A stretch of DNA of 64,000 nucleotides from Physcia stellaris (taxonomy: Eukaryota > Ascomycota > Lecanoromycetes > Caliciales > Physciaceae), in assembly GCA_018902385.1 (NCBI GenBank), contig JABSSW010000002.1, positions 1,116,001 through 1,180,000 on the forward strand. The letters are read 5' to 3'. Under the pieces are notes generated by a model. The model had not been told where the DNA came from. It was given only the letters and a program-made list of their open reading frames with translations, and did not search any database. Made by a program: the position numbers and the translations under genes. Each line of letters begins with the position of its first letter. Position 1 is the first letter of the stretch. This document shows, piece after piece, positions 1-21,692 of the stretch.

Positions 1-241
1 GAAAAAAAATCGATGACATAAATGAATTTTGCGAAATTTCTATGAATATTTCGAGTCATTCGATATCGTATTCGCTCGTTTTCAATATCGTCATTTTATT
101 GAACAAAAAAAAATCAATATATCGTATCAGTTTTTCGTTTAAACGTTTCATTTTGAGATTGTGTAACAATTTTAAACGCGTTATATTGTCGAAAACGCTC
201 ATCACGTCGAATAACATGATCACGATTATCAATTTCTTGTT

Positions 242-538
242 TCATGCGAAATGTATTCGTTTCATCATGTAATATAATGCGTGTTCTGTAAACACGACTT
301 TTTTGACTCCGAAATGTGTGCGTGACAGCAAATCGTGTTTTTTCGTCAAAAAGTTGATTCGTTTGATCAATATGAATTTCATGAATTTGCTTATAATATT
401 GAGTAAAATTATTGATTTGTACGAGATCGTCATTGAGTAAATATTTTTGTTTGATTTGCGTAGTGCGATCGTGATCGTTTTTCGAAAATGTTTCGAACAA
501 TAATTTTCGTTCAGATTGACGTTGTATATACGTTGCAA
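242..538 (-). pseudogene. LINE reverse transcriptase fragment
   Basis: The 98-residue open segment keeps the spacing of the N-terminal fingers of Tad1-type RT. It has a YCSKHFRKTITIALRK block, then a SYKSIILLNIISKFM block (the family has SYRPIALLNTIGKIM), then RTHFGVKKVVFTEHALYY (family RTHMGGRRLRSTEHALHY). The substitutions fit P to S/F and G to other residues, as expected when C is lost before C or T. The catalytic part would lie beyond the left edge of the window. It is not functional. Confidence 0.75.
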
Positions 539-1534
539 ATGTGATGCGATGATGTCACTTATTCATTTTCATATTTTATTGATTATGTCGTCGTCGTTTG
601 AAATCTTGTTCGAGTTCTGTTTGATTATGACTTTCGTCATTTCATGAAATTGTATGTTTTTCAGTTTCAAATTCTGATTGTATGTGATTTTCTGTATGTC
701 GATTAAAACAATCGTAAACGACGAAAAAAAAAATTTTTTCAACAATATGAGTGCTTTTTTGATTGAATCAGTTTCGAATAACATGAATGAATGATCGTGT
801 AAAATCGACAAACAAATTTTTTTTGAAATTCGATTTTTTGTTCATTTGCATGTTTTTCACATGCTGTTTGATGTATCACATTTTTTTTCGATCTTTTTTC
901 TGTATTGTGTTTTCATGATTTTAGAAACTACGTGACTCAAACGATTTTTCACTTTTTTGTACGATTTTCACAGAATTTCGATTTTGTCGTTGCTTTGATA
1001 TTTTTTTTTGATCGATTTGATCGTTCTCGATGTCTGCTTGTATTTTTCGATGAATTTTGATTTCGCGTAAACGCTCGATTTGCTGATCGAAATAATTGTT
1101 TCGATAATTGTTTGAATGATTTTTATCAATTTTTTGACTTGATCGTTTATTTTTTTTGTCTGATTGTTGTACGTGTCGTTGCTGAAAATGAGCGTTTCAT
1201 TATTCGTGACTTTCGTTTGCAACTTTTCGCGTAATATATCGATATTTGTTTTCGTTCAAATTCTTGTGATTTTCGACGCGATTTTTCTCGTTCGCAAATT
1301 GAATATCGTCTTAATTGAACGATGATTCGAGTGATTGTTCATGTTTTCGTCGATGTCGATTTCGATCATGTTGTTTCGAAACAACGATGTTGCGTATGTG
1401 AAATCGATTGTGCTTTCGCTCGTATGTTTATTTCATGTAATTAACTCGATTGATGTGATTTTTTTCAACTTATATTTCTTCATCGTGATTATGAACTCGT
1501 ATGCGTTCGCGTTTGTTTTCACATGTGATTTTTT

Positions 1535-1807
1535 TCAATTGAAATGATGCAAATTAAAATTTTTTACGACGACGTGTTTTTCGTTGACTTTTTCTCGCAT
1601 CGCGTTTTTAAGATTGAGTATCGCGCTGAAATTCTCGTTGTTTTTGCATGAATTATACATGTTGTGAATGTTGATAATTCTGTCGTTCGCGATTTGCATT
1701 CTTAACGAAATCAAATTTCTGTTGTGAAACGTATGAAAATATTCGATTTTCGTTATTTTTTTGTTGATGAACATGCACATTCTCGTGATTGCATCGAGCA
1801 TGTACAA
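1535..1807 (-). pseudogene. LINE AP-endonuclease fragment
   Basis: The segment retains the NIHNMYN motif, which aligns with the INIHNVYN strand of LINE EEP endonucleases. It ends in HVVVKNFNLHHFN, matching the family HIVVGDFNLHHPxW, with the catalytic GDFN turned into KNFN (G to K, D to N). Loss of the aspartate and glycine makes it catalytically dead. Its position between gag and RT agrees with a Tad1-type element. Confidence 0.7.
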
Positions 1808-2536
1808 TAACTCGAACTGTTGCGAAAGTTTGTTGTTTGTCGTGAATTGAAATGAATTCTTTCATGATTTTTGCATGATCAATATATCGAATTTTTTTAT
1901 GTTTTTTGTTTCGAACAGCGATATCATGATTTGAATTCTCGAATTGTTGACGTTGTATTGTAATATCGATAATGTGTCGTTTTCTAACATTTTTTCACTG
2001 TTTTGAATTTCGTATTTCGATTCGTGACGTCAATTAAAGATGTTCTGATAATCGTGAACGAAAAACTTTTTTTTTTTTCAGATTTTTCATATCTTTTTTT
2101 GATCACTGATGTCTTTTTATTCTTGATCGATGACGTCGATTTATCATTTTTTTTGTTTCGAGATTTTTGTGAACTTGAAAATAATTGCGATAACATCATT
2201 GTTTCGATCGACAAAATCATTTTCACGTGAAATTCATGCGCGTTCGTCTTTTTGCGTTTGTTGATTTCGTCTAAATAAATTTTTTTTTTTTGTGATTTTT
2301 CGATGTTTCGTCGTTGTAACTTTTTTAGTTGATTGAATTTCTTCGCAACGATTGTCGTTTCTGAATTTTCGTGAGTTGTATTCATCGATTTCGAAATCGT
2401 TATCATCTTGTTGACGACGATGTATTGTTGTTTTTGAATTTCGAATTTCGTTGACGTAATCGAACGTTAATACATGATTTTTTCGATTTTTTTTTGTTTT
2501 TTTTTGCATTTTTTTTTTCATGAATTATGTGCTTTT

Positions 2537-2809
2537 TCACATACACAGCATTTGATTTTGTAACTTTTTGCACATTTTTTTTTTTTTGTAGCATGCGCGT
2601 TTGCGCAATAATTGCATCGTTTTTTTTTTTGTGCATTGAATTGTATTGTGTTCGTGATAATGACATTTATAACATTGAATAGTTTTGCATGTCTTGTTAA
2701 ACATTGAACAAATTTTTAACTTTTCTTCGATCATGATGTTGTTGTTCAGCATACTGTTATTCATTTTTGAAATAATGACTTCAATAATCAGAAAATGATA
2801 TTGTTGCAT
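2537..2809 (-). pseudogene. LINE gag-like fragment with CCHC zinc knuckle
   Basis: A CX2CX4HX4C knuckle is intact at 2,633-2,674 (CYKC, H, C). It lies in a lysine-rich, otherwise unrecognisable peptide, as in ORF1 of Tad1-type LINEs, where knuckles bind the element RNA. The lysine and asparagine richness is at least partly produced by mutation (AAA/AAT codons). Neighbouring frames at 2,403-2,666 and 1,984-2,521 probably continue the same ORF after frameshifts. Confidence 0.55.
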
Positions 2810-3792
2810 TGTCGTGAATTTGTTTTTTCAAAACACGTACAGAATTTTCATTTTTTTTAATTTTTTCACGTTTTCGTTTTTTTTTCTGATTTTACGCATC
2901 GTCGTTTTTTTATTTTTTGTCGTTGTTAAGTCGAATTTCTTGATTTCTATTTCGTTGATCATGATCGCGTAAATCGAAACGATCGTTCTCGTTTTTTTAT
3001 CGAGTATCGTCGTTCATGCATTGTTGTTTCGCAATTTTTCTGTTTTCTTTGCGTTTATCGCGTGTATCGCGAAATCATCATTCGAAAATTTTTTGATCGC
3101 TCGAATACTCTTGATTTGTATGTTTTTTTCCGTAATGCACGTGTTGATTTCATTGACGATACGTTTGATTTCGTATTGATTCAATTGTTGTTTTTTCTCG
3201 TTGTCGTTTAGACGTATTATGATTTCGATGTTTTTGTTCGCGATGATTCTGAGCGCTGAGAAAATCGCAACGACGATTGTTCAATTGCGTGAATTCGTTT
3301 TGATCGTGAGAAAAAAGAAAAATTTGAAAAAAATGATTATTTCTGTAATTTCATGACGAATCATGACATTGTTTTTTTTCATTTTCGCGTGTTCTTTGTT
3401 GAATTGAGCAGTCATTTTGTTCATTGCGTTCATCATGTTTTTTTGAATGAATGCAAACTGCGTGTTTTCAAAATATGTCACGACGACTGTATCACTGTAA
3501 ATCAATTTTCAATGATTTTTGATGATGATTTTTCTTTTGTTCGAACGAATTCTCGACATTTTTTGATGTTTTTCAACAGCATTGTTTTTTGTTCGTGAAC
3601 GTTTTCGTTCGTTTGATTTAACAACGATCATGTTATTTTTTTCATCATCATCAATTGTTCATTGATCGATGCGCAAAGATTCGACGATTCGAATGACGCG
3701 TTAATCAAATCAATATCACGTTTCGTTGTTGAGTTATTTCAAAAATTGAATTTGTAACATAAATTGTGTTTGTTTTTCTCGGCGTCATATCT

Positions 3793-3911
3793 TGTTGCAG
3801 TTAGTTCATCTAGAGTTAGAATTGCAAAAAATCTGATGAAAATCTCAATTTCAAATTTTGTACACTTAGTATTATCATCGATATAATCAATGAACTATTT
3901 CTATTTCAACA
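3793..3911 (+). repeat. 5' LTR of the copia element
   Basis: 119 bp, TGTTG...CAACA. It differs from the 3' copy at 10 sites, all C/T or G/A transitions, and each is at a CpT or CpC site read on one strand or the other. It is noticeably less degraded than the internal sequence. Confidence 0.92.
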
Positions 3912-3929
3912 GATTATGAGTTCGAGCAG
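3912..3929 (+). other. Probable primer-binding site of the copia element
   Basis: The sequence GATTATGAGTTCGAGCAG directly abuts the 5' LTR. A mutated form of the same string (AATTATAAAATTCGAA on the minus strand) directly abuts the 5' LTR of the second copia element at 47,888-47,903. That supports a shared tRNA primer site. The tRNA was not identified. Confidence 0.5.
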
Positions 3930-6430
3930 TTCGTTTTCTATCAGTCAAGCATTACTCGCTTCGTTTTTTTCATTTTTTTAATGATTTTTGCATCGTCGTG
4001 CGCAATCTCTACGAAATCGAATACATTTTCTGAAAAAAATGAATCAAACGAATTTTCTCGATTTTCAACGTTGAATTTATTGTTTTTTTATTGATTCATT
4101 ATTTTGTTGTTTTTATTACATGAGCTAATTCGCGTATACATATCGCTTTTTAGTTTTTCAACGAATTTCGATGATTCTCGTCGTCGAAACAACGATTTAC
4201 ATTTTTTTTATCATTTCAATATCGTGCGCAAAACATTCATTTGATCGATATCATAATTCATTGCGATATTCGAATCATTACAACATTTTGTTTTATTTAC
4301 GTGTCATCAAAACATTTCATCATGATGTTTTATGTTTGAATTATTGTTCAAACGATCATCAACATCAATCGTTATTCAAAATCTCGATTCGAATTTCACA
4401 CGCAAATTCTGAGCATTTGCGCACATTTTTCTATCAAATTGAGTGCGTTATTTGCGTTAAATTTCTCAAATCGAGTTTTCATATTCGAATCGACGTTATT
4501 TTCGATGAAATTTCATTGTTGAAAATTATGTTTTTACATTAAATTTCATTTTTTTATTGATTTATTGCTAAATTACATTTGATTCGAATGTTTGAACATT
4601 CGTTTATTTTGCTCGTTCAAACGTTTGATCGTTTGTTGATTTTCTCGTATCGCATAAATGAAAATTTGAACGAGATTCTGAATTCGAAAATCGTGTCATT
4701 GATTCGTTTTTTACAAAGCAAATAGTTGATTTCGTTATTTTTTTTTTTATCACACATTTTCTGAATTTCTCATTGTTCGTTATTTTATTTTCAATTTATT
4801 CTCGATACACATATCAATACATTTTTTTGTCTATTTTATTTCATTGTTTGTTTCGAAATAGATCATACGATCGTCATTTCGAGAAAATCAAACAATTGAC
4901 GCATTTGTTTTCGTCGTCGTTACACAATTGCTTATAAGTTTTGACAATAAAAGAATGCATGAAACGAAACAAACACGATAATCATTTCATATTCACGTTC
5001 ATTTTTTTAGTAAACGTATTTAAATCAAAATGAAAAATCATTTGATCACATTTTTGATTTACATCAAATTATTGTATCGTTTCGAAAATTATTATTTTTG
5101 AAAATTTGAAATCAAAAATCATTTTCAATCGTTCAATGTCGAATGAATTATTATAAAATTTATACGAATTCGTTTTATTAAGAATTTCATGACAATTGAA
5201 ATCAAAACGAAAAATTATACGAACGAACATGTCGTCGTCAAAACGTTTGATTTGAAAATTGTTCAAAATCGTTATGATTTTGAAATCATCAAAACACATA
5301 ATTTTTTATTTAATTTCGTGCATGTTTCACATCGTTTCATTATTTTAAATCAAAAAATTTTCTTAAAACGTTGAATCGTTATTGCATTTCAATTCAAAAA
5401 AAAAACGTTCGTTTTCGTCATGAATATCATTTTTACATTTATAAATTTCAATTCAAAATCGAATGACGTTGAATCGTTCGTCGTTGTCGTGAAATTTATT
5501 CAGAATGATTTCATCACTATGAATGTTGAAATTTTCATTATTATATTCGTCATTTGTCAAGACATTTTGTTCGTCAAAATGAAATACGTTCATTTTTTTT
5601 TCGTTCAACAACAACGCAACAACTGAATCGCATTCAATACGAATGTCAATAAATTTTGTTTCGAATTTCGTCATTATGCAAAAATCGTTCAATTTTTCAA
5701 ATTCGTCGTCATGATTACACAAATTTCGAAATCGTCAAACAAACGAGCACGTATTCATGATGATCAAACGTTCATTTTCACGTCAAAATTTTTCAAATAT
5801 GTGAAATCATCGTGATGTTTTTTTTCTAAATGCGTTGAAACAAATCAAATTCATCATGATTTCAAACGATGTTTTTGACAAAATTTCAGCATTGCATACA
5901 AAAATTGACTAGACAAAAACATGTTCGATTACATTAAAAACGAAACGAGTTGACAATCACAATCGATCGTCAATTGAAAACGTGTTTTATCGATTGTTCG
6001 AACGATCAACAACATGTTGTGATACGTTGATTCGAAAACAAATATTCACGTTTGCAAAAACAAACATTTTATTCAGTCATTTCGTTTTCACGAATTTATC
6101 GTTTTAGTCGTCGATAAAATTCGTTTTTCGATTTCAAATCTGAACATGATACAATTTTTTATCGTTTTATCAAATGAAAAAATCATTGAAATTTTTATTT
6201 TATCGATATATTACATGTTCGACTCGTTTGTCAATTTTTTTTCGATATTTGTTTTCGAAAAACAGAATATTCATTGAAACACATTCGATCACGTGTTTAG
6301 AAATCGTGATGTTTTTGTTGTTTGAACGTTTTTGAGCGAAAATGATTTTTATGCAATTATGTTGCAAAACAATCAAATGATTGTTTTAATCATTGTTTCG
6401 TTTATTTCGCTATTTACATGACATAGACGA

Positions 6431-6676
6431 TTGAAACATTCTAATTATTTTGTTTTTCGAATATATTTCAAATTTTTGCAAATCAATTACGTTGACGACG
6501 TTTCGAATAATCACTGCGATGTATGCAAACAAATCAAAATTAAACGAAAATTCAATCGAAATGAAAACATCAAACGAGTTTCAAAACTTTTTCACATCAT
6601 ACACATTGATTTTGTATTTATCTCGATACTCGATTACGAGCAAAAAACGTGTTACATCACGTTCATTTGTGATTGA
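6431..6676 (+). pseudogene. Copia integrase N-terminal fragment
   Basis: The peptide has CDVCKQIKIKRKF followed by LFHIIHIDFVF. This matches the C-x2-C of the copia HHCC zinc region and the first catalytic strand (family LELIHTDLCGP), with the catalytic aspartate kept. The upstream histidines and the rest of the integrase core cannot be followed because of frameshifts and stops. Confidence 0.65.
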
Positions 6677-8014
6677 TGTCGAAAGATTGATATTTATACG
6701 ATCAAAAACAAAATCGAATGAATGATTCATTTCTCGATTTACATTTTCATGATTGAAAATCAATACAATGTGAAAATCAAAATCGTCAAAATTGATGATG
6801 ATTTCGAATTTCGCAACATCAAATTCGATGCATTTTTGATTTTCAAAAACATTTTATTCGAATTCGTTTTTATCGACGTTCAAAACGTAAATGAAATCGT
6901 TGAAATTCATTAACGTACAATTACAATCATGATTCAAACGACGTTATTTGACGACGACATATTTGATTTTCTGTGATCAAACGTCATTTTGATCATGATA
7001 TATATCAAAAAACGTCGTTTTTCGATTTTCTTTGACGACATGAATTTTATTGAAAAATTTATCGACATTGTTTCAAATTTTTCTAATTTGCATTTATTTG
7101 AAATCATCGCGTACGTCGTCAAAAATTTCAAACACAAAAATCATCTCGAGTTTCGCGATGACAAAAACATTTTTATTGAATACGACAACGACACGATTTA
7201 TCGTGTATGAATTTCATTTTTTAACGACAACGAAATACGCAAAATCAAAAACGTCGATTTTTACGATATCGCAATTTTCAAACAATACACGATTTTTAAC
7301 GAAATCATTGCATTTGAACAGAAAAAATGTTTTATTATTTCAAACACAATTTCAAACGTTATTGTTTCGAAAACTATCACATTCAGAAATAAGTCGATTA
7401 TTTTTCGCAAAATCAAATTCGCATTAAAAATTTCACAAAGCATATTTTCAGTCATTTTTCATAAATTTATCATCATGCGTTCAAATCGTCAAGTCAAACA
7501 AATTAATTTCTTTATGAATTCATTTGTTTACTCGTCTATATCAAACAATACGACAAAAGTATTTAACGTTGCTATGACAAAATTACTGACAAATTGAAAG
7601 CACTTTTTCGACGATTTCGTCGTTTTTCTGAATTGTATCGACGAAAATTCTATTTTCGTCGAACGTTTTTTCGAATGATACAATGATTCATGCGTTGTCA
7701 ATTCAATTTCATTGTTAGTTGATTTTATCGAAACTCAAAATGTCATCAATTTTGAAAATTTCGTTGTTTTCAACAATATGAATGACGACGAACTCAATAC
7801 ATGAACATAAATTATAAATAGTTCAAATTCGTCAAATTGAATGAACGTCGTCGAAAACGAAATTCAATTTTTGAACAAAAACAATACATGAATTTTGATA
7901 AATCGTACACTCGATGATCGAAAATTTCTAAACGATAAATGAATTTTCAAAATCAAACGAGATGTCGAAAAAAAAGTAATTCGTTACAAAATTCGATGAA
8001 TTGTCAAAAGTTAT

Positions 8015-9334
8015 TTGCAACAATATAACATTGATTTCGAACAAATTTTTGTTTTCGTGATCAAATCAATGATTTTTCGAATTCTGTTCGTCATCGTCGC
8101 ATTTCTGAATCTGAAAATCGAACAAATGAACGTCAAAACTGTTTTTTTTTACGATTTCATCGATACAGAAATATACGTTAAATATTTCGAAAATTACAAC
8201 GAGAAAAAAATCTGCAAATTTCACAAAATTTTATACGATTTTAAACAATTTTCTCGTTTATGATACGAACGTCTAACAAATTTTTTTTTTGAAAAATTGA
8301 GTTTGCATCATTTACACGTCGATCACAACATTTTTGCAACGACGAAAAATTTCAAAAATTTCATACTCATTTTCTGAATTGACGATATCAAAATCATTGT
8401 TTTTTTTATCGTCATGATCAACAAAATCAAAAAAGAATTGTTCGTTGTTTTCGAAATGATTGATATGAAATCAATTAATTTTTATTTAAACATGATCGTC
8501 ATCAGAAATCGTGATCGCAAAAAAATTCGATTCAATCAAAAAATTTACATCAAACGCATCGTCATCAGATTTGATCGAAATGAAATCAAATCAATACATA
8601 TTTCAATGCGAACGAATTTCGCTTCGATTTTTAACGAAAATCAAATTTTTGAATTCGACACGAAATTGTATCAAATCAAAATTGATTTCGTCATGTTTGT
8701 TATGATTGAAATCAAATCAAATATTTTTAACGTCATTTTCATCGTCAATCGTTTCGTTCAAAATTCAAACAAAATTCACATGAACGTCGCAAACGATATT
8801 TTCGACTATTTCAATATCATTGATCGTCTAAACATTGTTTACGAAAAAAAAAATTTTGATTCACAAAATTATTGTGACGTCAATTACGATGATGATTTGA
8901 TCATTAAAAAATCAATTGACGTTTACGTTTTCATTTTCAATGATAAATCAATAAATTGAATGTCAAAATTTCAATTTATCGTGATCATTTTCACATGCGT
9001 TGCAAAATATATAATCATTTCGACGATTACTAAAAAAATTATTTGATTTCGAAATTTGTTTGTCGATTTACATACTCATCATCAACGTGACAAATACGCT
9101 ATTTTACAGATACATATCGATAGTCAAAATGTCAAAATTTTCGTCGAAAATTCAATTCATCATGATCGCATTAAACACGTCGATATCGTTTATCATTACA
9201 TTCGAGACGAAATCAAAACTAATCGAATTCGTCTATATTACATTTTTATTCAAAACATGTTTGTCGATGAATTTATCAAAATTTTGATTTTTATCAAATT
9301 TCGTTGCTTTATTCAGATGTTGAACATGAATTAA
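8015..9334 (+). pseudogene. Copia reverse transcriptase and RNase H relic
   Basis: Reads as copia RT: MIFRILFVIVAFLNLKIEQM, then MNVKTVFFYDFIDTEIYV (family MDVKTAFLYGDIDEEIYV), then a degenerate CIDDIKI in place of YVDD. RNase H follows through to a tail ending at 9,334. TGA codons at 8,261-8,263 and 8,957-8,959 sit exactly where copia has tryptophan (RxWYE and SxSWxSK). If TGA is read as tryptophan the frame is nearly continuous, which shows how little nonsense the mutation process produced outside TGG codons. Confidence 0.85.
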
Positions 9335-9500
9335 ATTCAAAAACGTTGTATTGTTATCATAACATGCTGAATTTTTTCGATTTTAAATCATTACATTGAA
9401 TATTGAAATGTTTTACAGCGTAAAATGAAATTCACATCAATTTTTGATGATAAATTCATTTTCGTCAATAAATTTTACTCGAACTCGATTCGAAAAAAAA

Positions 9501-9619
9501 TGTTGCAATTAATTCATCTAAAATTAGAACTGCAAAAAATTTGGTGAAAATCTCAATTTCAAATTCTGTACACTTAGTATTATCATCGATATAATCAATG
9601 AACTATTCCTACTTCAACA
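9501..9619 (+). repeat. 3' LTR of the copia element
   Basis: 119 bp, TGTTG...CAACA, preceded by a purine run (CGAAAAAAAA) that is the remnant of the polypurine tract. Base 9,620 onward has ordinary composition, so this LTR end is the compartment boundary. Confidence 0.92.
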
Positions 9620-10056
9620 TATTCATTCTAAGCGTCTTTCCAAGGTACATGTACATAAAATCCTGGCGTTGCCCGCCAAGCCTTGCACAAAAGCTTAGTG
9701 GCTGTTTATGCAGATCTGTGCAGCTCTTACCAAAGCTACTCGGCTAACCCGTCTTGAGCGCTCTAAGAATTCAGGTCGTTACTCCGAACGTACGATGATG
9801 GCGAAACACGTTTTTCTCCATCGCTGGGTTTGAATGGCATGTCTCATGTGTCGCTCTCCTCGATGGTCTTCCCTTCACTTCGAAGGGCGACGTCTACTGT
9901 GCTACTGGCCTAGGCCCGGTCATGATCCGAGTCCTAGCTGTCAGACGCCGTGCTGACAGGCAGATCCGATTGGTCTGATGCCACTGAAGCCAGGCTTCGA
10001 TCTCTCAACATCTTTCTTTTCCTTTGATCTTACCAGTAAATACAAAGCACCATCTC
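9620..10056. other. Intergenic region upstream of the P/Q-rich gene
   Basis: GC-balanced sequence with no gene I can support. Short frames exist but lack recognisable content. It presumably holds the promoter and 5' UTR of the gene starting at 10,060. No clear TATA box is visible. Confidence 0.5.
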
Positions 10057-10059
10057 ATG

Positions 10060-10809
10060 ATGGGCTTCCTCAATCCCAAGCAGGCAGAAGCTTCCAATCA
10101 CGAGCCCACGGTCGAAACAAACCCTCCTCCACCGTACAGTGTCTCCCCATCCCTTCCTCAAGAACAAAGCACCACCCCTTCGATTCCTTATGGCCATCCA
10201 CCCCAGCAACAATATAACCAACAGCAACAGTATCCACCCCAGCAGCAACAGGAAACCCCACCGCAACCCCCCTCCAGCTCCACGGCCCCCGTGCCCCGCA
10301 CCCTGCACATCTACCGCGAAGGCTTCACCCAAAAACGCGGCACAATCTACGACAGCGACAAAACCACGCCCCTATACCTCCTCCGCAATTCCTGGTCCGC
10401 CGACTGGTCCCCCTCCAAACCCCACATCGAGATCCTCTCCCCGTCCACCTCGCAAACCATCGCCACCGTAACCTTCCACGCCTTCTCGCGCACCATCGAT
10501 TTCCTCATTCACGGGCATCCGCTCCCCCTCGATGCCGCGGGCTGGTTCACGCGCTCCCATACCTTCCAGAGCCCGATTGGCGTGCTCAAGTGGGAGGCTA
10601 CGAGTATTTGGGGGTTTAGCTTGCAGTGTATTACCGAGAGCGGGGAGTGGCTTGCGAGGTTCGATGCTGCCTATTGGAGTATGAAGAAGGAGGGACGGCT
10701 GGAGATTGTGTCTAGGGAGCTACCGCAGCAGCTGGTGGATCAATTGGTGGTTACGGGGCTGGCTATGGTGGAGCTTGAGAAGAGGAACTCTAGGGGAGGT
10801 GGTGCTTGA
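10060..10809 (+). CDS. P/Q-rich protein with possible tubby/LURP-like domain
   Basis: An uninterrupted frame of 249 residues. Two adjacent ATGs occur (10,057 and 10,060). The second has A at -3 and G at +4 and is preferred. The frame is open further upstream but without ATG. Residues 1 to about 80 are low complexity (Pro, Gln, Ser, with PQQQYNQQQQYPPQQQQ). Residues about 80-235 form a globular domain of alternating beta-type segments (LHIYREGF, GTIYD, IATVTFHAF, GVLKWEATSIWGFSLQC, GEWLARFDAAYWS) and a C-terminal hydrophobic helix (QQLVDQLVVTGLAMVELEKRN). That plan, a 12-strand-like barrel wrapped round a hydrophobic C-terminal helix, resembles fungal tubby-C-terminal-like/LURP proteins. No catalytic residues are visible. 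The gene is certain by composition; the family is a guess from pattern. Confidence 0.75.
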   Translation: MGFLNPKQAEASNHEPTVETNPPPPYSVSPSLPQEQSTTPSIPYGHPPQQQYNQQQQYPPQQQQETPPQPPSSSTAPVPRTLHIYREGFTQKRGTIYDSDKTTPLYLLRNSWSADWSPSKPHIEILSPSTSQTIATVTFHAFSRTIDFLIHGHPLPLDAAGWFTRSHTFQSPIGVLKWEATSIWGFSLQCITESGEWLARFDAAYWSMKKEGRLEIVSRELPQQLVDQLVVTGLAMVELEKRNSRGGGA

Positions 10810-11939
10810 GAAGAGAGGAAAAAGAAGACCGAAAGAGGGATAGTAGAGAGGGCCTTGGTTACGGCTCCGGTGTGGATACCCGTGAAAGAATATATATTAT
10901 CTGTACGGCTCATAGGACGCGCTTCGAATAACGGCTCACAGCACGCGCTTCGAGCACGCAATATGCCCACCACTTCAACCACAACAATCATAAATGCCAA
11001 CGCACGCAGCCCAATAGAAGCATCCCAAGCTATCTGTGCTCGCGTTCGTAATGCGTTCAAGATGACAAATTAGCCGCAAACTCTCTTCTATCAATGAGGA
11101 TATCAACAATATCTCGGTACCTAATTGCCTCACGCTTGGCTCCCACAGTATACTCATCCATCTGTTCGAATGGTTATGTCTGCATAGGCTACAACAATGC
11201 TCTATACCCCAGTCCATCCCTCATTAATACGTATTCACACAATCCCACAGATTAGTGGTCCATGCTCTGCGCGAAGTAGTCCGAACCCCTCAGCTCACAC
11301 TAGTAGAAGTGTTTCTTTTCGTTCTCTCGTTCTCTGCTCCCTGTCATCCGTCTTCCATTTCCCATCTCTTCTTTGTTTTAATTTCATAGCATCGCAGCCG
11401 AATGTCAACTATCCGTACCCACTGCTATAGATAGCTATGCAGTGAAATGTTCCCTTTCTGTTACGCTTTGTCGGTATGCTATGAGTCTCGTTTAGTTAGC
11501 TACTTGGGATCAGATGCTGGGAGGACGGCTGGGGGGTTGGTATCGGCCATTGGCTATCTATCAATGCTATACATAGCTAGTCTATGATACATCTGCTAGA
11601 TTTCATGAGGAAGTATCGGGGATTTTCTATGGCTGCGGATTTTCGTTGGATGTGAAGGTCTTGATGTGATGTTCTTCAGCTTTTGATGGCTAAGGCGGTT
11701 TTTATGAGTTAGCATTGTTGCCTTTTGATTGATTGGTGTTAGCTAATCGTTGTTTTCACACTGGCTTCTACTGTTGGCTTCGTCAGCTCTCTTTCCGCTA
11801 AGGCTTCACCATCATCCTACCCAATACATCTAGAGCATCCACTGCACCCAATGCTTTCTCCAACCACTCGCGCTCTCCACCCAGACAGCCGCTCCTCTCC
11901 GCTCCGCTTCGCAAAGCCCAAACGACTGAAAAAACAATA
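10810..11939. other. Intergenic region without recognised genes
   Basis: Ordinary composition. Only short frames are present, none starting at a convincing ATG with recognisable content. The 11,310-11,380 stretch is pyrimidine-rich. It presumably contains the 3' end of the upstream gene. Confidence 0.5.
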
Positions 11940-12388
11940 GGGGTCGTCAGAGTAACTTTTTTTCGACCTCGCAGACCTCGCAGACCTCGCAAGCAGTAAT
12001 TCCCGCACCTTAGCGTGTCTGCAGAATAATTTCATCGAATCAGAGCCGACGCTAAAATTCGAATTAACAAATCTTACGAGTACTCGTATTGCTCGTTAGC
12101 TAATCGGTCTCGAGAGACCGATTAGAGCTCGTTAATTTCGTAAATGTCGCATTCAACAACACATTTCATCGCACAACAATACACGTATTCGATTGCTTTA
12201 TGAACATCATTGTATATGTTATTTGAAATGTATTTTGTCATTAATATTTATTCACAATGTTACATGTATGTGTCGTCATGTTATTCAGAGAATTTTGATG
12301 TTCTTTGAATAAACTGTTTCCTGCCTTTAGCGCCTCCGCACAAAATTGAACCGGAGCGAGAACGAAAAAAAGTTACTCTGACGACCTC
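11940..12388. mobile_element. 449-bp MITE, Tc1/mariner-like TA insertion
   Basis: Terminal inverted repeats of 26 bp (11,940-11,965 and 12,363-12,388) match with one mismatch. The element is flanked on both sides by TA (11,938-11,939 and 12,389-12,390), the target duplication of Tc1/mariner/pogo transposons. It has no coding capacity. Inside are three direct copies of GACCTCGCA next to the left end (11,965-11,991), a 26-bp perfect palindrome and an AT-rich core. It lacks the severe mutation of the large AT-rich blocks and is near the lower length limit at which RIP acts in other fungi. It would need a transposase supplied elsewhere in the genome. Confidence 0.8.
12100..12125. repeat. 26-bp perfect palindrome inside the MITE
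   Basis: Self-complementary sequence centred on CTCGAG (CTAATCGGTCTC / GAGACCGATTAG). A second short palindrome, ACGAGTACTCGT, lies just upstream at about 12,077-12,088. Both could form hairpins. Their role is unknown. Confidence 0.8.
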
Positions 12389-13108
12389 TAATATAAAATA
12401 TCTACACGACTGTGCATCATCACAGATTAATTCCAAAGGCTTGTGAGATCCGAGGGAAGTAGCAAGGAGGAGAAATACAGTGCTAGTATTAAATAAGAGT
12501 TGAACCAAAAAATGGGGGTTGGAGAAGAAGTGGGAGGGGATGAAGAAGGAGAGATAGGAGGAGAGGGAGAAAAGAAACTTGAATGAAGAGGATATTGTTG
12601 GAGGATTGGGAGAGGAGAGGAGAGGAGAGGGGGTGAGAAGATGGGAAGGAGATACGAGGATACATTACTTGCAGACTGGATCTAAGACTAGAGGAGGAGA
12701 GTGGGGTGGAGGGGATCAGGACCACGGATCACGACCAGGGATAGACGCAAACGAGGCTTGAGAAAGTTGAAGGACCTGAAGATGTTGAGGCTTCGGCGAT
12801 ACTGCATGGTGGGTCTGTGTCAGTGAGGACGAGCTGATGAGAAATGGAGTAGGTAGGATTTGGGTCGGGCAAGGTTGGCAGATTAAAGAATATAGGACAG
12901 AGGGATCTGAGGAAACAAAAACATTTGAGATCTTCACCACGTGAAATTTGTCGTGCGTATTAGATTAGATTAACTATTATCTCCTGCTCAAGGAAAGAGA
13001 GGCAACCACCCTGAGTCCTCAACCGCGAATAAGCAGTGGGCTTTCTAAGATATTTAAGGGTGAAATCGGACCGCAAAGCCAATTTCCTTCGAAGAGTCGA
13101 GTCGAAAT
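12389..13108. other. Intergenic region with a long purine tract
   Basis: No gene supported. Bases about 12,500-12,660 are strongly purine-rich on the plus strand (GGAGGAGAGGGAGAAAAG-type repeats), that is, a CT-rich tract on the minus strand. Such tracts are common in fungal promoters, but no gene start lies near it, so its role is open. Confidence 0.5.
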
Positions 13109-13991
13109 CTATCGGTAGCGGCGACGATCACCCCCCCTGTACACAGATCTCGAACCTTCCCCCAACTGGCTCATGCGCTCCTCGGTAATGGAAGAACCGG
13201 GCGCTACTGTTCCCTTCCAATGCGGTGGACCGGTCCAGGGCTGATCTCTGGGATGCAATGAAGGAGGAGCACCGCTGTGAGTTGTTAGCTGAACATGTAG
13301 AGAAAGAACTTGGAGTGCAAGATGGCTCAAACATACCCATGAGATGACGGAGGCCGATCGAATTGATCGTTGTGCCGGTCAAAGAAGGCTTGGTTGCTTT
13401 TACGCATAGACAATTTAGTACGTACTGGATGAATAAGAGGGAGGACTATTGAGAGATAACTTACCTCACAGGCGGGCCGCGGCGTCTATGAGACGGTTGC
13501 TGGACGTAGTCTCGCTGTGGAGGTATCCCTCCCATATAATCAGGGTGGTGGCCGTTGCTCATACGACGCGCAGGTGGCCTAGATCCAGCTCGAGATTGGC
13601 TGCTGCTTCGTCTATGAGGAGCAGCGGAGGAGGCTCGGCTTCGTGGCGGTGGCAGTCTCATGCCTTCCTCTCGTTCATCTTGCCGGCCCTGCTCGTACGC
13701 CCGGTTGTGGATTTGCTGCTCGTTTATCGCTTGCTGGCGTCCCTCCTGTATGCCGACGACTTTGCCCTCCGCAAATCCCTCCGCTTTGCCTTCGGCCCTG
13801 ACCCTCTCCTTGCCCCTCTTGAGGTTATTCCTCATTCGGCAACTTTCTCTTCTACGCAGGTCCTGCTGGTGGTGGTACTGCGAGTGGTAGTACTGGGCCT
13901 CGAGTTCGGCTTCGAGTGCTCGGTCATGGTAGTGGAGATGTGGACCGTCCCAGAAGTCTCCAACGGGGATGAGGTGGTGTCGGTGAGACAT
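13109..13991 (-). CDS. Three-exon gene, GX3-repeat/Arg-Ser-rich protein of unknown function
   Basis: Exons 13,991-13,465, 13,396-13,337 and 13,274-13,109 join in frame to 250 residues. Intron 1 has donor GTAAGT and a TACTAAA-type branch. Intron 2 has donor GTATGT, branch GCTAAC and acceptor CACAG. The start ATG at 13,991 begins MSHRHHLIPVG; longer reading upstream is possible but looks like UTR. Residues about 45-110 are charged and helical, with glycine every fourth residue (EGKAEGFAEGKVVGIQEG). The next part is Arg/Ser/Pro-rich (SRASSAAPHRRSSSQSRAG) and the tail is GGDRRRYR. The GX3 spacing recalls the deca-GX3 motif of Yae1/Lto1, but the rest does not fit that family. The low-complexity basic tail suggests nucleic-acid or protein binding (inference). 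Confidence 0.72.
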
Positions 13992-14763
13992 GGTTGGTAT
14001 ACTTTGGTAGAACAAATCTCGTAAGTTTGTTGGATTGAGCTGGAGGAGGTTGTAAGGGCAACGACTGGTAGTATAATCTTCGGGTATTGGTAAATACCTT
14101 GGTATCTGTAAAGACTTTGAGTATCGGCGAAGACTTAAGATATGGGTAAAGAATGACGAACTCAAGCTCTTGGTGGAAGCGAGGGATATATATACCCATT
14201 CCCATAGATTAGGCTAAGACTAGATTGGTCGGCTAGCGTCTGTGTTATGTATGGTTGTGTTCAACGAAAATATAACATCAAGGTTAAGACTCCTGGAGGG
14301 ATGAATTCACTGATATGATAGACCTGAATATATAAATGAAGACTTATGATAGATGAAATAAGGACATCAAACCCACTCTGTTGGTTTCTGTTCCCAGACA
14401 TGGATTTCCCAGCATGATCGTGTTGTAATTGAATTATTACATCATTGAACACAAGTGAGAAAACAGAGAATGCAAAGATGTTTTCAAAGTAGTCTTGTGA
14501 AACCTGTACGGCTGCTCAAGTCACCAGTCAACATTTGATAAAAGTTGGTGTTGAAGCCAAATGGATTTAGTCTAGAGAGTTCTCTTCTTCGGTTATCTGT
14601 AAATCCCGAGGTGTTATGATGCGGCTGGTTTTTTGAGATAGGACTCCTGTTGAGCGAATACTACCTAGACATACCTCAAGTGTGCGTTCTGTACTGTAAT
14701 CAGAACACTCATCGTGCCGTAAGCTCTCCTTGACTTGACAGTGGGAGCGTCGTCAATGTCAGC
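13992..14763. other. Intergenic region
   Basis: Upstream region of the minus-strand gene at 13,991 and downstream region of the next one. Tandem-like GGTATTGGTAAATACCTTGG motifs occur near 14,085-14,120. No gene supported. Confidence 0.45.
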
Positions 14764-15580
14764 CTAGTAATTCGACAGACTTCTAAGGACTTCTCTTGTA
14801 CTTTGGACATCGTAATCGTGATCATAAAGTGTTATGGCTACCACTTGAATACTGAGTCGAGGGAATTCTCTTTCGAGCAGATTCTGTATTTCTGCTTGGC
14901 TGCGGATCAATCGCTGTCTTAGATATTCGTTCTCCTGGTTCATCTGCAAATTCTCTGCTCGGTCTCTCGAATTTTGTTTCTCTCGGGCAATGCGTACATT
15001 GGAAGTTTCCTCCCGTATTCTCCTAAGCGTACTCCTTGCGCGCTCTATGTTTGGGGCGTCAATGAGGACGGAGGCGACGAGAGGGGTTTCGAGATCCGAG
15101 AATTCGAATTCGAATTGTTCCAGGGTAGAAGTTCGATCCTCCATATGCGGTGACTATTATCTCATCAAACAATGCTGGACTTTGATTGAATTTCGCAATT
15201 ACCTCGAAATTGTCCGCAGGATGGACTGAAGCTCCTGTGAGATCCATTTGCCCGGGAACGTTGTCCTCAGCGACTGGCAGCCTTGAGTTCGCTTCAACGA
15301 AACGTACACGACGGGTTGGGGGATTTAGCCGACGTTCAGCAAGAGACCAAGTATCTTGCCGAACTTGAGACTCGCCACGACTGGCAAGGGCTATTGCCTG
15401 GCTATTCTCGGGCGTAATTTGTGGAGCAGGCTGCACCTCCGGTGTCGCAATGGGTAAATTGTGTGTACTAGGAGCGGCTGCTTGTACCACGGAAGCAGGT
15501 GGTACAAAGTAGCACCATCCCAGGTGCTGGAAGTCATTCGAGCTGTCATGGCCGACTGGTGGCCATTGATATGGATTCAT
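14764..15580 (-). CDS. Two-exon hypothetical protein with C-terminal coiled coil
   Basis: ATG at 15,580 (MNPYQWPP). An in-frame 49-nt intron is proposed at 15,202-15,154 (donor GTAATT, acceptor ATAATAG), joining exon 15,580-15,203 (126 codons) to exon 15,153-14,764 (129 codons plus stop) for 255 residues. Unspliced reading would end at 15,059 and leave a separate coiled-coil ORF starting with an internal ATG, which is less likely. The N-terminal half is Pro/Ala/Ser-rich. The C-terminal part is a charged coiled coil (ERARSTLRRIREE, NEYLRQRLIRSQAEIQNLLE). The branch site is not canonical, so the intron is an inference from frame continuity. No family recognised. Confidence 0.6.
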
Positions 15581-16076
15581 CGTTTTACAATAGCGGATTC
15601 TGGAAGGATTTCAAAAAAGAGAATTTTCCGTAGCGACAAGTTTGTATCAAGTCTTGGTGAGGTAGGTAATACTGTGATGCATGTTTAGCGGAGAAAAATT
15701 CTCTTGGGTACTTGGGAGTCCAGCTACTTGAGTTCTGACAGACCCTCCTTGCCCATGAATTTGACATGACGTAGGAGTGTGACTCAACCTTGTGCATTCA
15801 CAAGGTGCCCGCACTCCTGTGGCGGGGTCATGCAATCAAGAAGGATCCTGCTATGAAGATATGTTCTAGTTCAGTCTGGTCGATGAGGACCACGAGTACC
15901 GGGGCTACCCAGATATAGGTCTATCTCGTGTGCTGAGTCAAGCGACTAGCTAATTCTCATCGACGTGATATATTTGATTGGTGCTTTGCTGAAAGGACGT
16001 TTTCGTATCGTCAAGTTTCTCATAAACCTTGACAGGACTTAGCGCTGGGAATCATGACATTGCATATGGTACAGAG

Positions 16077-16430
16077 TCAAGATGAGTCTAGAATTTTGGG
16101 ACTGAAGAACATTTCAATGTATGAAAAGCACGGGGGAGAACGAAACAAGCCTCGAAGGGAAACGTGGAGCAAACTGCAAGTACAGAGAGCTATGACAAAC
16201 AAATAGATGTTAGCAATCCAATATTGATGTAGAGTCGCTGTCCAGCCTATCATCAAAAGCATAACATTGGCTATAACAGCGCGATACAATGCATGAAGCA
16301 CTTATCAAACTTTCTTGACCTTGTTGTCCGCACTCGCGAGGCAAAAGCTTTACTTACGTCCAAACACAGTATCAGTGGCTTTCAATACTTGCTTCCCAGC
16401 AAGCAGAAGGGCATCCGTCCCGGTCAGCAT
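16077..16430 (-). CDS. Possible two-exon small membrane protein
   Basis: ATG at 16,430 (MLTGTDALLLAGKQVLKATD), exon to 16,358, donor GTAAGT, a 57-nt intron, acceptor AAG at 16,301, exon 16,300-16,077. The joined frame gives 98 residues with two hydrophobic segments (about 31-52 and 56-78), consistent with a two-pass membrane protein. Frame agreement across the intron and the good donor are the support. No homology is recognised and the frame also extends upstream of the ATG without a start, so a longer or decayed gene is possible. Confidence 0.35.
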
Positions 16431-17524
16431 CTTTCCTGGAGAGAGATACGGAAACAACCTTGAACAAGATTGAATTGGGTGCAGAAGGTTGAGATGAGTA
16501 AACCCTGGTTCCAAGCCATTCGATGAACCTATCCCACTCTTCAAAGTCTTTGGTTTCGGGCTCGACTGAAACTTTCTCCGGTACTGTGGAGGGAGACTTC
16601 GAGGTAACACGGGAGTAAGTTATCTCTAGTTGATTATCACCGATAGCGGCAAAAAGCGAGCCAGGCCTCTCGTGATATCCTGCTCATCCTGGAGCAGTCA
16701 TCCAGTCCCGAAGAGGAGTTCATGGCCATTTTGGACCGGAGAACCGAATATTTGTGGCTGAGGAGGCATGGGCTTGAGTCCTTCTAGATCATACATTCCA
16801 GTAGTGTGTGGTCCACCCATGAGAAGCCTGCAAAATCCTACCGAGCTCTTTCTGCCCTTTACGGATTCCACTAAGCCTCTAGAGCGAGCCGCAGCTATGA
16901 ATACTAAGAAAGCTACAGCCGTTTTATGGCCAGACTCGACATACCAGCAGAAGAGAAGACCACATGTTGAGCCACTAGCGGAGGGCGGTCGTATATCAAA
17001 GACGTAGGGCCAAGTACCGTGGCCTTGCCGATGGCTACTGAACTCATTGGACACTCCTGCTCGGCCTCGCCCTTCTCGGTACGGGTCTAGTGATTCTTTT
17101 TGCTTTGGGCTAAGTCACGTTAAAGAACTTGTGTTTGCTACCTTCGTATCCGTATTCAAAACCGAAAAGTCCTTTCAGAATATTGTAAGGCGTGGGACGT
17201 GGATCCCTGCAGCTAATTTTACTGTTTCCCAAGTTGTGCGATTTCTCAAATGATTCTCCGAGCCATAACGCATAATTTACCAGCAGCTCTACCCAGATAC
17301 CCTTAGTATCCGACTCCCACGGCAGGATGATAAACCATTCCTCTTAATATCACTTAAGTTACGGCAAAGTTAGATGTGATATCTTGGTGTATCTCTAATT
17401 TTCGCCTTTTACGTTGGTCGTGAAAGTACGTGAAGTCGAAGATCACAACCACGCGACTAAATCTGACACCTAACACCAGTTTTCAGGGTCACTTTCTCTT
17501 GGAAGGCGAATTACGGTGCTTGGT
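16431..17524. other. Region without a supported gene
   Basis: A minus-strand frame of about 118 codons (16,698-17,054) lacks an ATG start and shows no recognisable domain. It could be part of a decayed gene. Nothing else is supported. Confidence 0.4.
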
Positions 17525-17767
17525 CTAGAGTTGGACACTGTGGGCACCAATACGGCACGAGAACGCTAGAGACGAAAAGCAATCATCAACCACAAGAAGC
17601 CAGACTCGAAGATTCACCGGCTGTAGACCGTAAAGACGCCCCTTAGCCCCGTATAATCCTGGGCAATGGTGCGTGTAGCACTTCTCCAAAGAGTAGACCA
17701 ACTCGTACACCGGCTTCGCTTCTTGAGCTTGATAGACGGAGCTTCCAGATGTTTTTTCCGATGTCAT
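17525..17767 (-). CDS. Small ORF, doubtful
   Basis: An 80-codon frame with a true ATG (MTSEKTSGSS...). No homology, signal peptide or splice sites that would extend it are recognisable. It is listed because it is the only ATG-started frame of this size in the interval. It may be chance. Confidence 0.2.
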   Translation of the reverse strand: MTSEKTSGSSVYQAQEAKPVYELVYSLEKCYTHHCPGLYGAKGRLYGLQPVNLRVWLLVVDDCFSSLAFSCRIGAHSVQL

Positions 17768-17984
17768 GCTCTATTTACGAAACTCCTTCTTATTGTTGAC
17801 TTGATTGAGGAATGGCCGGCGCACTTGCGAGCATAGGCTTGTCGCTAAGTGCGTCTGTACAGGCTTTTTCGTATTCCCGCTCTGGAGTGGGTCAATATAG
17901 GCGAGATTGAACGATACGAAGCGGAGGTCCAGATGGTCCATGCAGGACGTGCCACGACTGCCGCACGAATGTGGGGTACATAAG

Positions 17985-18055
17985 TAGCATTTAAGGTACC
18001 TTAACGAAGGTTAAGTAGTACCTTAAGTGTAACTGTGTACGAGGTACCTGAAAGC
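17985..18055. repeat. Cluster of GGTACCTTAA-type motifs
   Basis: AAGGTACCTTAA, a reversed AAGGTTAAG and TACCTTAAG occur within 70 bp, forming inverted and direct repeats of a KpnI-like core. Similar AAGGTA/TACCTT strings appear near 57,850-57,900 and 59,155-59,175. A dispersed short palindromic motif is likely; its function is unknown. Confidence 0.5.
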
Positions 18056-18588
18056 GATCGGCAGTGCCTTCTACTTGGGGTCTAGCTCGAAAACGTTTCT
18101 TGGCGCTGCCGACGGGCCGAGCCAGATGTCACATGGTAGGGTCCCCTCCGTCGTACAACTCAAACCTAGGAACGTTGCACTTGGCTAGGAACAGTGCAGC
18201 TGTATACGATGAAGAGGCTGGCTGAATTGCGCTTCGAAACTTCAATGTTTGCCCAGTTGCAGCTTGACAGTTTTCAGGAAGCGACAATGTCCTACTACCC
18301 CAGCATCGCGAAAGTCAACCTCAAGTATATAAGGACCGCCATGTCCATCAGCAACGACAGCATCAGCATCCACTCCAGCACCAGCACCAGCAACACAAAG
18401 CATCTTTCAGGACCTCAGTCAAAAAGCAGAACCAGAAGTCAGCATACAACAACCAAACTCCACAACCAGCCTACAATTACAACATCCACTACCTAGCAGT
18501 ATCAAGTACTCTTCACCTACGCTAAACAGACTCTTCTTGCCTCATCATCAAACCATATCTTTCTCAACTCATAATCTACCGAGCAGCC

Positions 18589-19215
18589 ATGATCTCCTCT
18601 GCCATTATCGCTCTACTCTCCGCTTCTGCTGCAATTGCAGCACCTACGGGCAGCGCAAGCAATGATTCACCCATCGTCGCTCGTTCATGTGGTCCAGCCA
18701 ACTTGTTCAAGAACCCTGCCTTCAATGCTCCAGGCAAAGAGTGGGCTCTCACTGGAGAATCAGGAACCGGCACAGTCAAGGGTGGAGTGCAGAACACCTA
18801 TTTCCCCGTAAATTGGCCGTCCAACGGAGGTCCCTCAGCCTACGCTCTCAACTTCACCATTCCCGCCAGTCAAAGCAAGAGCATCAGCTTGCAACAGACC
18901 ATTCCAATCTCAAACGATGATGACTACGAGATCTCCTACAACATCTTCCTCTCTGGCACCACAACCGCCAAATGCACAGCTATCCACTATGCAGGAGTTG
19001 GTGACGGGTTCCCGACTCTTCTCCGACTTCCTCCTGTCTCGAGCAGCCCTCCCGCCGGAAACTTCTACGTCAACAACTTCACCGTTCCCGGTAACAACTG
19101 GCAGAATCTGGCGAGCAATAATATTGCGGGCGCTCAATTCACCTGTACCGCCGGTTCTACGAATGCTGCGGTCAATATCTACCTTGATAATGCCTCCATC
19201 ATCGACAAGTGTTAG
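18589..19215 (+). CDS. Secreted protein, CBM4_9/galactose-binding-like beta-sandwich
   Basis: 208 residues, no intron. The ATG has a good context (CAGCCATG). A signal peptide is evident (MISSAIIALLSASAAIAA, cleavage about residue 18), with VARS at 30-33 as a possible pro-peptide end. The mature part opens with NLFKNPAFNAPGKEW and closes with AAVNIYLDNASI, the start and end signatures of carbohydrate-binding/galactose-binding-like beta-sandwich domains (N-x-x-x-N-P-x-F...W; V-x-I-x-x-D). Four cysteines (34, 129, 186, 208) could make two disulfides, and three N-glycosylation sequons are present (88, 163, 201). No catalytic domain is present. An extracellular adhesin-like or effector role is inferred from size, secretion and position about 0.3 kb from a mutated transposon block. 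Confidence 0.82.
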   Translation: MISSAIIALLSASAAIAAPTGSASNDSPIVARSCGPANLFKNPAFNAPGKEWALTGESGTGTVKGGVQNTYFPVNWPSNGGPSAYALNFTIPASQSKSISLQQTIPISNDDDYEISYNIFLSGTTTAKCTAIHYAGVGDGFPTLLRLPPVSSSPPAGNFYVNNFTVPGNNWQNLASNNIAGAQFTCTAGSTNAAVNIYLDNASIIDKC

Positions 19216-19528
19216 AATCTTAAGATCGAGCCACGCACACTCAGGTCGCTACTTTACGCCTCTTAATCTTTTTCAGTGATTATTTTCATCGACTGTTAGC
19301 TGTTGGCTCTGGGGTTGCTGGAATTCTTTCTTCGGTTGGCTTGATCGCGTTTGGGAATGTCTGCGTTCATTACTTGTCTGTTTTGGTATTCCTGCTTTAG
19401 TACTTTGCTCGCTTTATCTCTTTCCGACAGGATCGCTCAAATATATAAACGGTGCGCTAGATGTAGATTAGATTAGATAATATAGACATAGAACCACCTT
19501 TAGACAATTGCAACTTCTACGAATAATA
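19216..19528. other. Secreted-protein gene 3' region up to the AT-block edge
   Basis: Ordinary composition. Contains the presumed 3' UTR. No further gene. Confidence 0.5.
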
Positions 19529-19675: not shown

Positions 19676-20307
19676 ATTAATTTGAAACGTTAAAATGTTT
19701 GATCGCATTTTCTGATTTTCTCATTCGATTTGAAAATAAAAATTTCGTTGTTTACGCATCTGATTCATCAACTTATTTACATCACAATCAATCATGTTCA
19801 AAGCAAACAAATTCAGAACATTTTCAAGATTTGCAAAACGTGCAAAATTTACAATCAAAATCGTCGTTTCCGTTTCGAAAAATCAGACGAAAAATGATTT
19901 TTCATTTCTTTTTGCTTTCACGTTCGATAAATTCATTTATTTATTTTTGTTTTGAACGATCAACGATCGAACATTGAACTGAAAATTGATTGACGTTTTA
20001 AAAAACATGACAACATTCGAACAAACGTTTGAACAATTGATGACGATATAATAATCGAAATAACAAAAATCGAATGATGCGAACGAACGACATTCGAATT
20101 GTTGAAAAATAATGAGAATTTCAAATTTTATATTTTGAATGAAAACGAACGTATTCAAATCGATGTACGTTATTATGATAACAATATCAAAAATCAATTC
20201 GACACGATGAAAAAAAACTGACGTAAAACGCATGCAATTTTGAATGAAATTGATCAAAATATTATCGACAAAAATCAAATACAAAAAGAATTTGAATTGT
20301 ACGTTAT

Positions 20308-21087: not shown

Positions 21088-21572
21088 CTGAATCAATTCA
21101 AAACAAATTTCGATTTCGAAAAATACGTCAAATGCTGAATTCTGATTTTCGCATATGCAAATGTTTTGATCGAAAAGTTTTAAAAATTCGTGAAATTGTC
21201 GAATTTTCATGATTTCAAAATTCAAATCAAATTGTAATTTTACATATTCGCGCGAAAACTAATCATTTTAAATAAAATGTGAATTTTTTGTTGACTGAAA
21301 AATTGCAACATCATCATACAAATTTCTGATATACATTCAAAAGAAATTAGCGTCAATTTTTAACGTGAAAATCATCAAAATCGAATTTTCGTTGTCTTTG
21401 AACATCATTCGACGATTTTTCGCATTTGATACACGTCATTCAAAACGATGTAAATCGACGATTTAACGCATTTGTATGATATTACATTTATTGTTTTAAC
21501 GATTTTACTTTTCATCGTCGTGTAAATCGTGTGACAAATCGCTCGAAAAAGTAAAATTGAAATTTTAATCGA

Positions 21573-21692
21573 TATTGAACGAATGTGAATGATTGTCATT
21601 GCATTGCATGCAATATTATCGAAATTACGTATAGAAATAAATACAATTTGATTGCGCAAATGTTTTTAATAATAATCGATTTTGACACGTTT
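21573..21692 (-). repeat. Copia 3' LTR, part 1 (interrupted)
   Basis: 120 bp, nearly identical to 47,904-48,023. Continues at 29,538 after the gypsy insertion. The last five bases (CGTTT, 21,688-21,692) are the gypsy target site. Confidence 0.85.

Follow-up and report, generated by a model that had tools for sequence, protein, structure and literature searches.

The closest described counterpart of the process reported here is the RID-dependent repeat-induced point mutation (RIP) of Neurospora crassa, in which C is changed to T on both strands, only repeats are affected, AT-rich blocks are found and a RID-type methyltransferase is present in the genome. These traits are shared by Physcia stellaris, a lichen-forming fungus (Physciaceae), from which we analysed a window of 64,000 nucleotides (contig C2:1116001-1180000) that carries a copia-type element at positions 3793 to 9619 together with nested retroelements. 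We report that the repeats of this fungus bear the marks of a RIP-type, repeat-limited mutator acting on C before a pyrimidine (CpY), in the order CpC>CpT>>CpG,CpA, as compared with CpA>CpT>CpG>CpC in N. crassa (PMC5496416; here and below, statements on other studies refer to excerpts of the cited papers).

In every cited account of ascomycete RIP CpA is among the targets, and CpC comes last where the targets are ordered. Botrytis, Sclerotinia and Magnaporthe use CpT together with CpA, CpT leading in Magnaporthe oryzae and one Botrytis strain (PMC4352252), and in Anisogramma the targets are CpA and CpT (PMC10998396). These fungi share with P. stellaris the CpT target and the presence of a RID, but CpA is their second or equal target and CpC is unnamed in the excerpts, whereas in P. 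stellaris CpC is the preferred target and CpA almost escapes. CpG leads in Tuber and the basidiomycetes studied (PMC4352252). Trichoderma reesei (CpA~CpG, CpT>CpC; PMC5496416) also departs from the Neurospora order, but with CpA and CpG in the lead and CpC last. CpC is among the depleted dinucleotides in Stagonospora nodorum repeats (PMC2621366) and CpC-to-TpT double changes are mentioned for Monilinia (PMC8959702); unlike in P. stellaris, CpA-to-TpA counts as the dominant or classical form in these two. Among lichen fungi, AT-rich mutated repeats as in P. stellaris are described for Endocarpon pusillum, with classical indices of 1.47 and 0.70 (PMC3897900), where P. stellaris scores negative, and for Cladonia rangiformis, with a GC peak near 16% (PMC12542154), below the 21-30% usual for P. 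stellaris repeats. According to a survey of 1,239 fungi from October 2025, RIP-like defences share a preference for CpA (PMC12543289). Our literature search, covering mostly titles and the beginnings of abstracts, recognised no report of a CpC-first or CpY-only RIP, and the word RIP does not occur in the P. stellaris genome paper (PMC7513301).

The genome searched comprises 43.97 Mb in 147 contigs; the published P. stellaris assembly, generated from nanopore and Illumina reads, is given as 46.57 Mb in 184 scaffolds with an N50 of 594.86 kb (PMC7513301). Within the window, two AT-rich blocks (1..9500 and 20001..49300, the latter with nested retroelements; GC 0.27) alternate with two gene blocks (10001..19500 and 49601..64000; GC ≈0.48), which show ordinary CpN use and were used as controls. 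The retention of C, expressed as C/(C+T), was 0.548 for CpA, 0.471 for CpG, 0.070 for CpT and 0.001 for CpC in the AT-rich blocks, to be compared with 0.569, 0.433, 0.491 and 0.426, respectively, in the gene blocks. Hence, CpC is practically absent and CpT ≈85% lost from the AT-rich blocks, with CpA and CpG at the level of the gene regions. The same pattern emerged when 500-bp bins from the window and other loci were compared (counts from both strands; 78 bins with GC 0.45-0.50 and 284 with GC 0.20-0.30). From the GC-rich to the GC-poor bins, CpC dropped from 51 to ≈0.1 per bin and CpT from 68 to 5-12, while CpA went from 69 to 59-65 (range 59-70 over GC 0.50-0.20) and CpG from 50 to 52-60 (range 44-63). 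Since CpC and CpT collapse while CpA and CpG hold, practically all loss of GC represents C lost before a pyrimidine.

The classical CpA-based indices are accordingly negative in the AT-rich blocks: (CpA+TpG)/(ApC+GpT) was 1.35 and TpA/ApT 0.42, the latter below the RIP threshold of >0.89 (PMC3897900). The observed/expected ratio was 3.11 for CpG and 0.41 for TpA; the CpG excess, which could be mistaken for the trace of another process, arises because C is lost before pyrimidines. Among five arbitrarily placed 8-kb stretches of the genome one was AT-rich throughout, with 0-1 CpC per 2 kb, and four were GC-rich with normal CpC.

To determine the direction of change we used the copia reverse-transcriptase profile PF07727, which gave 137 scored matches, and fetched pieces of 20 of these for three separate comparisons, each setting a copy with few mutations or no stops against a heavily mutated relative. 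Two of the three references are stop-free; the third already has four TGA, and its earlier mutations are uncounted. In the three comparisons C had been replaced by T at 174 of 185 CpC, 170 of 236 CpT, 15 of 246 CpG and 10 of 276 CpA sites, and the reverse change, T to C, was seen at 17 of 1101 sites. Four further comparisons gave 93-100% mutated CpC, 72-99% CpT, 4-11% CpA and 1-3% CpG; they were kept out of the totals because they reuse one of the three references, which would have been counted many times. The CpA preference and raised TpA/ApT of classical, Neurospora-type RIP are thus absent. An ordinary CpA-directed RIP that had run to saturation, with only CpT and CpC left to vary, would produce an excess of CpT changes, and such an excess is seen in alignment tallies for the N. 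crassa Tad1 element (PMC2621366) and for RIP-capable fungi at large (PMC7882544), saturation of CpA being one possible cause. Here, however, C is kept at 264 of the 276 polarised CpA sites, CpA stays at 59-70 per 500 bp whatever the GC content and TpA/ApT is 0.42. We therefore reject saturation, the probability of which we regard as negligible. CpA is not the dominant target in the sequences compared (10/276, against 344/421 for CpY), in agreement with the initial annotation, which from a few LTR (long terminal repeat) pairs had proposed a RIP-like process acting at CpT and CpC and not at CpA. The present data support this proposal more strongly than it was put, with the difference that CpC and not CpT is hit most; CpC had been under-called because almost none is left.

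The strict context is reflected in what the elements can still encode. If every CpC were mutated, neither GG nor CC would remain, so that TGG (Trp) would be turned into TGA and the Gly (GGN) and Pro (CCN) codons would vanish, whereas CAA, CAG and CGA would not be direct targets. The sequences agree with this expectation. All ten Trp codons that could be followed in the three polarised comparisons had become TGA. The 137 PF07727 matches contain 401 TGA, 101 TAA and 3 TAG internal stops (4 matches stop-free, 70 with TGA only), and the 150 scored of 527 candidate matches to the reverse-transcriptase profile PF00078 contain 250 TGA, 33 TAA and 3 TAG (10 stop-free, 112 with TGA only). Together, TGA accounts for 651 of 791 internal stops in 287 matches, some of which are pieces of one domain; the 101 and 33 TAA point to occasional hits at CpA. 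In the window, the copia reverse-transcriptase domain of the element at 3793-9619 (7913..8602, plus strand; C2:1123913-1124602) has four internal TGA, a PF00078 domain (24261..24734, plus strand; C2:1140261-1140734) has two, and a second copia domain in two pieces (30995..31686, minus strand; C2:1146995-1147405 and 1147408-1147686) has one TGA and one TAA in each. Stop-to-stop frames of at least 80 aa from the AT-rich blocks (86 frames, 9,259 residues) contain 0.00% Pro, 0.01% Gly and 0.00% Trp, while Gln (4.24 vs 4.11%) and His (3.01 vs 3.18%) are close to the values for frames in the gene blocks. Eight proteins (P0238-P0245) that share 79-93% identity with one open frame of the mutated copia element together contain no Pro, one Gly and two Trp, the same signature in other assemblies. 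A scan of IMG/VR for related copia elements returned three pattern matches, none of which was confirmed.

LTR pairs provide a separate view of the mutations. The 5' and 3' LTRs of the copia element (3793..3911 and 9501..9619, plus strand, 119 bp each) differ by ten transitions only, eight at CpT and two at CpC, exactly as first counted. For the gypsy-type pair (21692..21889 and 29336..29533, plus strand) the eight CpT transitions were recovered, with three at CpA instead of the two reported (the extra one is among the final bases, which align poorly), two transitions with an unclear neighbour, and two transversions in a 198-bp global alignment or four in a longer local one. The LTR-like copies of an older nested copia element (21573..21691 and 47904..48022, plus strand, starts taken from the initial annotation) gave one CpT, three CpA and one CpG in the clean block, which does not reproduce the two CpT and four CpA claimed. 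The context read from these pairs was right; the raw counts are by themselves insufficient, because alignment tallies place CpT above CpA even in ordinary RIP fungi, and the decisive evidence is that CpA is retained.

The copia LTR has 28 copies in the genome, among which we assigned ten pairs by spacing. Counting variable over all sites, these gave 27/40 for CpC, 78/159 for CpT, 9/169 for CpA and 0/22 for CpG, with two transversions and 24 transitions excluded since a neighbour was also variable; CpY differed at 105 of 199 sites and CpR (C before a purine) at 9 of 191 (Fisher 3e-28), and the difference between CpC and CpT was borderline (Fisher 0.05). A search with the gypsy LTR gave 40 scored matches of 60 candidates, of which 30 loci were available, and in the five pairs with both LTRs among these the values were 45/61 for CpT, 9/115 for CpA and 3/109 for CpG, with no CpC remaining, seven transversions and five transitions excluded (CpY 45/61 vs CpR 12/224, Fisher 1e-27). 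In the element flanks, compared over all, overlapping, pairs of loci (61 copia, 119 gypsy), the variable fraction for copia and gypsy, respectively, was 0.75 and 0.84 at CpT, 0.10 and 0.13 at CpA, 0.04 and 0.07 at CpG, and 213/414 and 17/17 at CpC. An artefact of assembly or sequencing, conceivable for an assembly built from nanopore and Illumina reads (PMC7513301), is hard to reconcile with strict-context substitutions at dozens of loci on many contigs next to gene blocks with normal CpC, and we give it practically no weight.

Both strands are hit alike, with 62 G>A and 52 C>T in the copia pairs and 27 G>A and 30 C>T in the gypsy pairs, and the base 5' of the target has a weak effect: at CpT in AT-rich loci C is kept at 0.088 after G and at 0.049-0.055 after A or T, and CpY preceded by G was mutated once and conserved 14 times in the copia LTR pairs, with no such deficit in the gypsy pairs (20 vs 7). 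These data bear on the possibility that an APOBEC-like enzyme deaminated the cDNA of the retroelements prior to integration, a process that would also leave C-to-T changes in retroelements and by which LTR differences could in principle predate insertion. Strand bias and a 5' context are typical of APOBEC enzymes, the opposite of the strand balance and 3' context found here, and editing of this kind was rejected as very improbable.

Next, we asked where the mutations end. Of the 28 copia loci, 13 had a recognisable internal side, and the ten of these whose outer flank is GC-rich were used. The value of C/(C+T) before a pyrimidine was 0.01-0.10 on the internal side adjoining the LTR, whereas the 50 bp immediately outside it gave 0.37 and the more distant flank 0.37-0.50, values near normal; before a purine it was 0.42-0.54 inside as well as outside the element. 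The loss of CpY thus ends at the outer edge of the element, and the CpY bias was not seen in unrepeated DNA, where its presence would, according to the initial annotation, have refuted the claim; the gene blocks of the window have ordinary CpN use. The 20 LTRs of the ten copia pairs retain between 0 and 11 CpC each. Three LTRs of full elements (L020, L025 and L027) have 10-11 CpC although the GC content of the adjacent interior is 0.27-0.29, and LTRs seem to be partly protected or mutated late. Element edges thus seem less mutated than interiors, which may explain the differences that LTR pairs still show. Two copia LTRs flanked on either side by GC-rich DNA (L018 and L028), probably solo, keep 9 and 13 CpC; this is suggestive of the escape of a single 119-bp repeat, though several LTRs of full elements keep 9-11.

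The boundary also bears on the possibility that the changes were made without RIP, by a heterochromatin-guided pathway of the DIM-2 type or simply because 5-methylcytosine at CpY was deaminated in silenced repeats. The N. crassa Dim2 pathway reaches neighbouring DNA, and the step in CpY retention from 0.01-0.10 inside to 0.37 within 50 bp of the edge disfavours such spreading; moreover, near-complete loss accompanied by only two transversions in ten copia LTR pairs speaks for a fast mutator. A DIM-2-like gene is nevertheless present, and methylation outside CG has been described in Ascomycota (PMC7862722). On balance, we consider this explanation improbable. Methylation without mutation (MIP) is ruled out, as the repeat sequence is mutated.

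A search of the genome with the PF00145 profile gave four matches representing three genes: an ordinary RID (RID-A), a divergent second RID-like gene (RID-B) and a gene on contig C3, for which the label DIM-2-like comes from its sequence and size only. Specifically, RID-A (contig C5, P0121, 932 aa) clusters with RIDs from other Lecanoromycetes and is complete, no motif being absent, and in the alignment it keeps the catalytic loop beginning PPCQ.FS.AHT, as in the Xylona, Aspergillus and Astrocystis RIDs. RID-B (contig C6; 134.5 bits with PF00145) has a shorter N-terminus than RID-A and carries the motifs GDCFCGGGG, SPPCQ and EET and a C-terminal IGNAVPP, which together with the tree placement fit the class I methyltransferases of the Masc1/RID family; two in-frame stops probably lie in introns, at places where the Heterodermia protein has no sequence. 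While sharing the motifs of the family, RID-B belongs to a separate clade on a long stem (SH-aLRT, the Shimodaira-Hasegawa-like approximate likelihood ratio test, 100 for 15 rows, its sisters included; support 98 for 37 rows in the first tree). The positions of long-branched RIDs from non-lichen fungi are unsure in these trees, and 17 hits without a readable motif were left out of the first. The named members of the clade are from Physcia and Heterodermia only, and Heterodermia also has RID-A. The loop after the catalytic motif reads FSPxQ in all 28 RID-B-like rows with PPC[Q/E] and in eight sisters (three of 39 rows were unreadable), whereas His (FSxxH) takes the position of the RID-B Gln in 163 of the 169 other RID hits whose loop could be read (188 were examined). 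Some of the sisters of RID-B (P0031, P0032 and P0034-P0038) have PPCP and not PPCQ at the catalytic motif. Another RID-like group (P0041, P0045, P0048, P0054-P0056 and P0061), with Haloplaca and Lecanora helva, lies beside RID-A, and the Lecanoromycetes may hold three RID lineages.

In the broad sense of RIP, the C-to-T changes on both strands, the confinement to repeats and the presence of RID-type methyltransferases are all found here. We consider it very probable that the repeats of P. stellaris are subject to a RIP-like C-to-T process on both strands, directed to C with a 3' pyrimidine (CpC more than CpT) and seldom a purine. The mechanism is probably that of RIP, in which case a RID-type cytosine methyltransferase, by which the mutator is probably run, would act during the sexual cycle on repeats that have paired, and the C it modifies would finally become T. 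As to the enzyme, RID-B with its changed catalytic loop is the likeliest source of the new context, ahead of RID-A and the DIM-2-like enzyme, although this step is put forward with more reserve. A plausible but tentative scenario is that RID-B evolved a new catalytic loop and so turned RIP into a CpY-specific mutator that erases CC and GG from repeats, and with them Pro, Gly and Trp codons, genes being inactivated via Trp-to-TGA and not Gln-to-stop. Alternatively, RID-A, a complete enzyme that clusters with the other Lecanoromycetes RIDs and lacks none of the motifs, could have changed its target preference, RID-B having another role; as RID-A keeps the shared loop and RID-B is the enzyme changed there, we find this unlikely, if still worth considering.

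Several observations weigh against the proposed process or the role assigned to RID-B, or limit them. The tie between RID-B and CpY is a correlation in one genome, and the comparisons covered two LTR families plus the reverse-transcriptase domains. CpA does not escape entirely: it was mutated at 3.6% in the three polarised comparisons and at 4-11% in the four further ones, its variability among element copies is 2-3 times that of CpG, and raw CpA changes outnumber those at CpT in 4 of the 14 disjoint gypsy pairs, in which little CpT remains. Because the 119-bp LTRs are only partly mutated, the edge of the affected DNA is graded over the LTR. Finally, the multiple-alignment columns are weak and partly contrary evidence, varying at 6 of 11 CpA, 2 of 2 CpG, 3 of 3 CpC and 6 of 6 CpT in the copia LTRs and at 1 of 2 CpA, 4 of 8 CpG and 6 of 6 CpT in the gypsy LTRs. 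These counts mix old copies with inherited differences and few columns pass the neighbour filter, and we relied on the pairs and the polarised comparisons instead.

Two further repeat-bearing features lie in the second gene block of the window. An open frame of 1463 aa at 50964-55355 has many imperfect 99-nt direct repeats and is ankyrin-like by their period and look, and at 58530-58741, in GC-rich sequence, a direct repeat occurs in four imperfect copies spaced by 36-70 bp.

In conclusion, P. stellaris has a real, strong and repeat-limited CpY mutator that is RIP-like in its action and non-classical by its context. This context is the reverse of the Neurospora preference, and tests built on CpA would miss it; repeat blocks from which CpC is almost wholly gone score as RIP-negative by CpA indices, and RIP may therefore be under-counted in fungi. 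Frames without Pro, Gly and Trp and with mostly TGA stops provide a simple signature for which any assembly can be screened. Moreover, an ordinary and a divergent RID in one genome, beside an inverted context, make the question of how RIP chooses its context testable, and if RID-B is responsible, the target context of RIP would be an evolvable property encoded by the enzyme.

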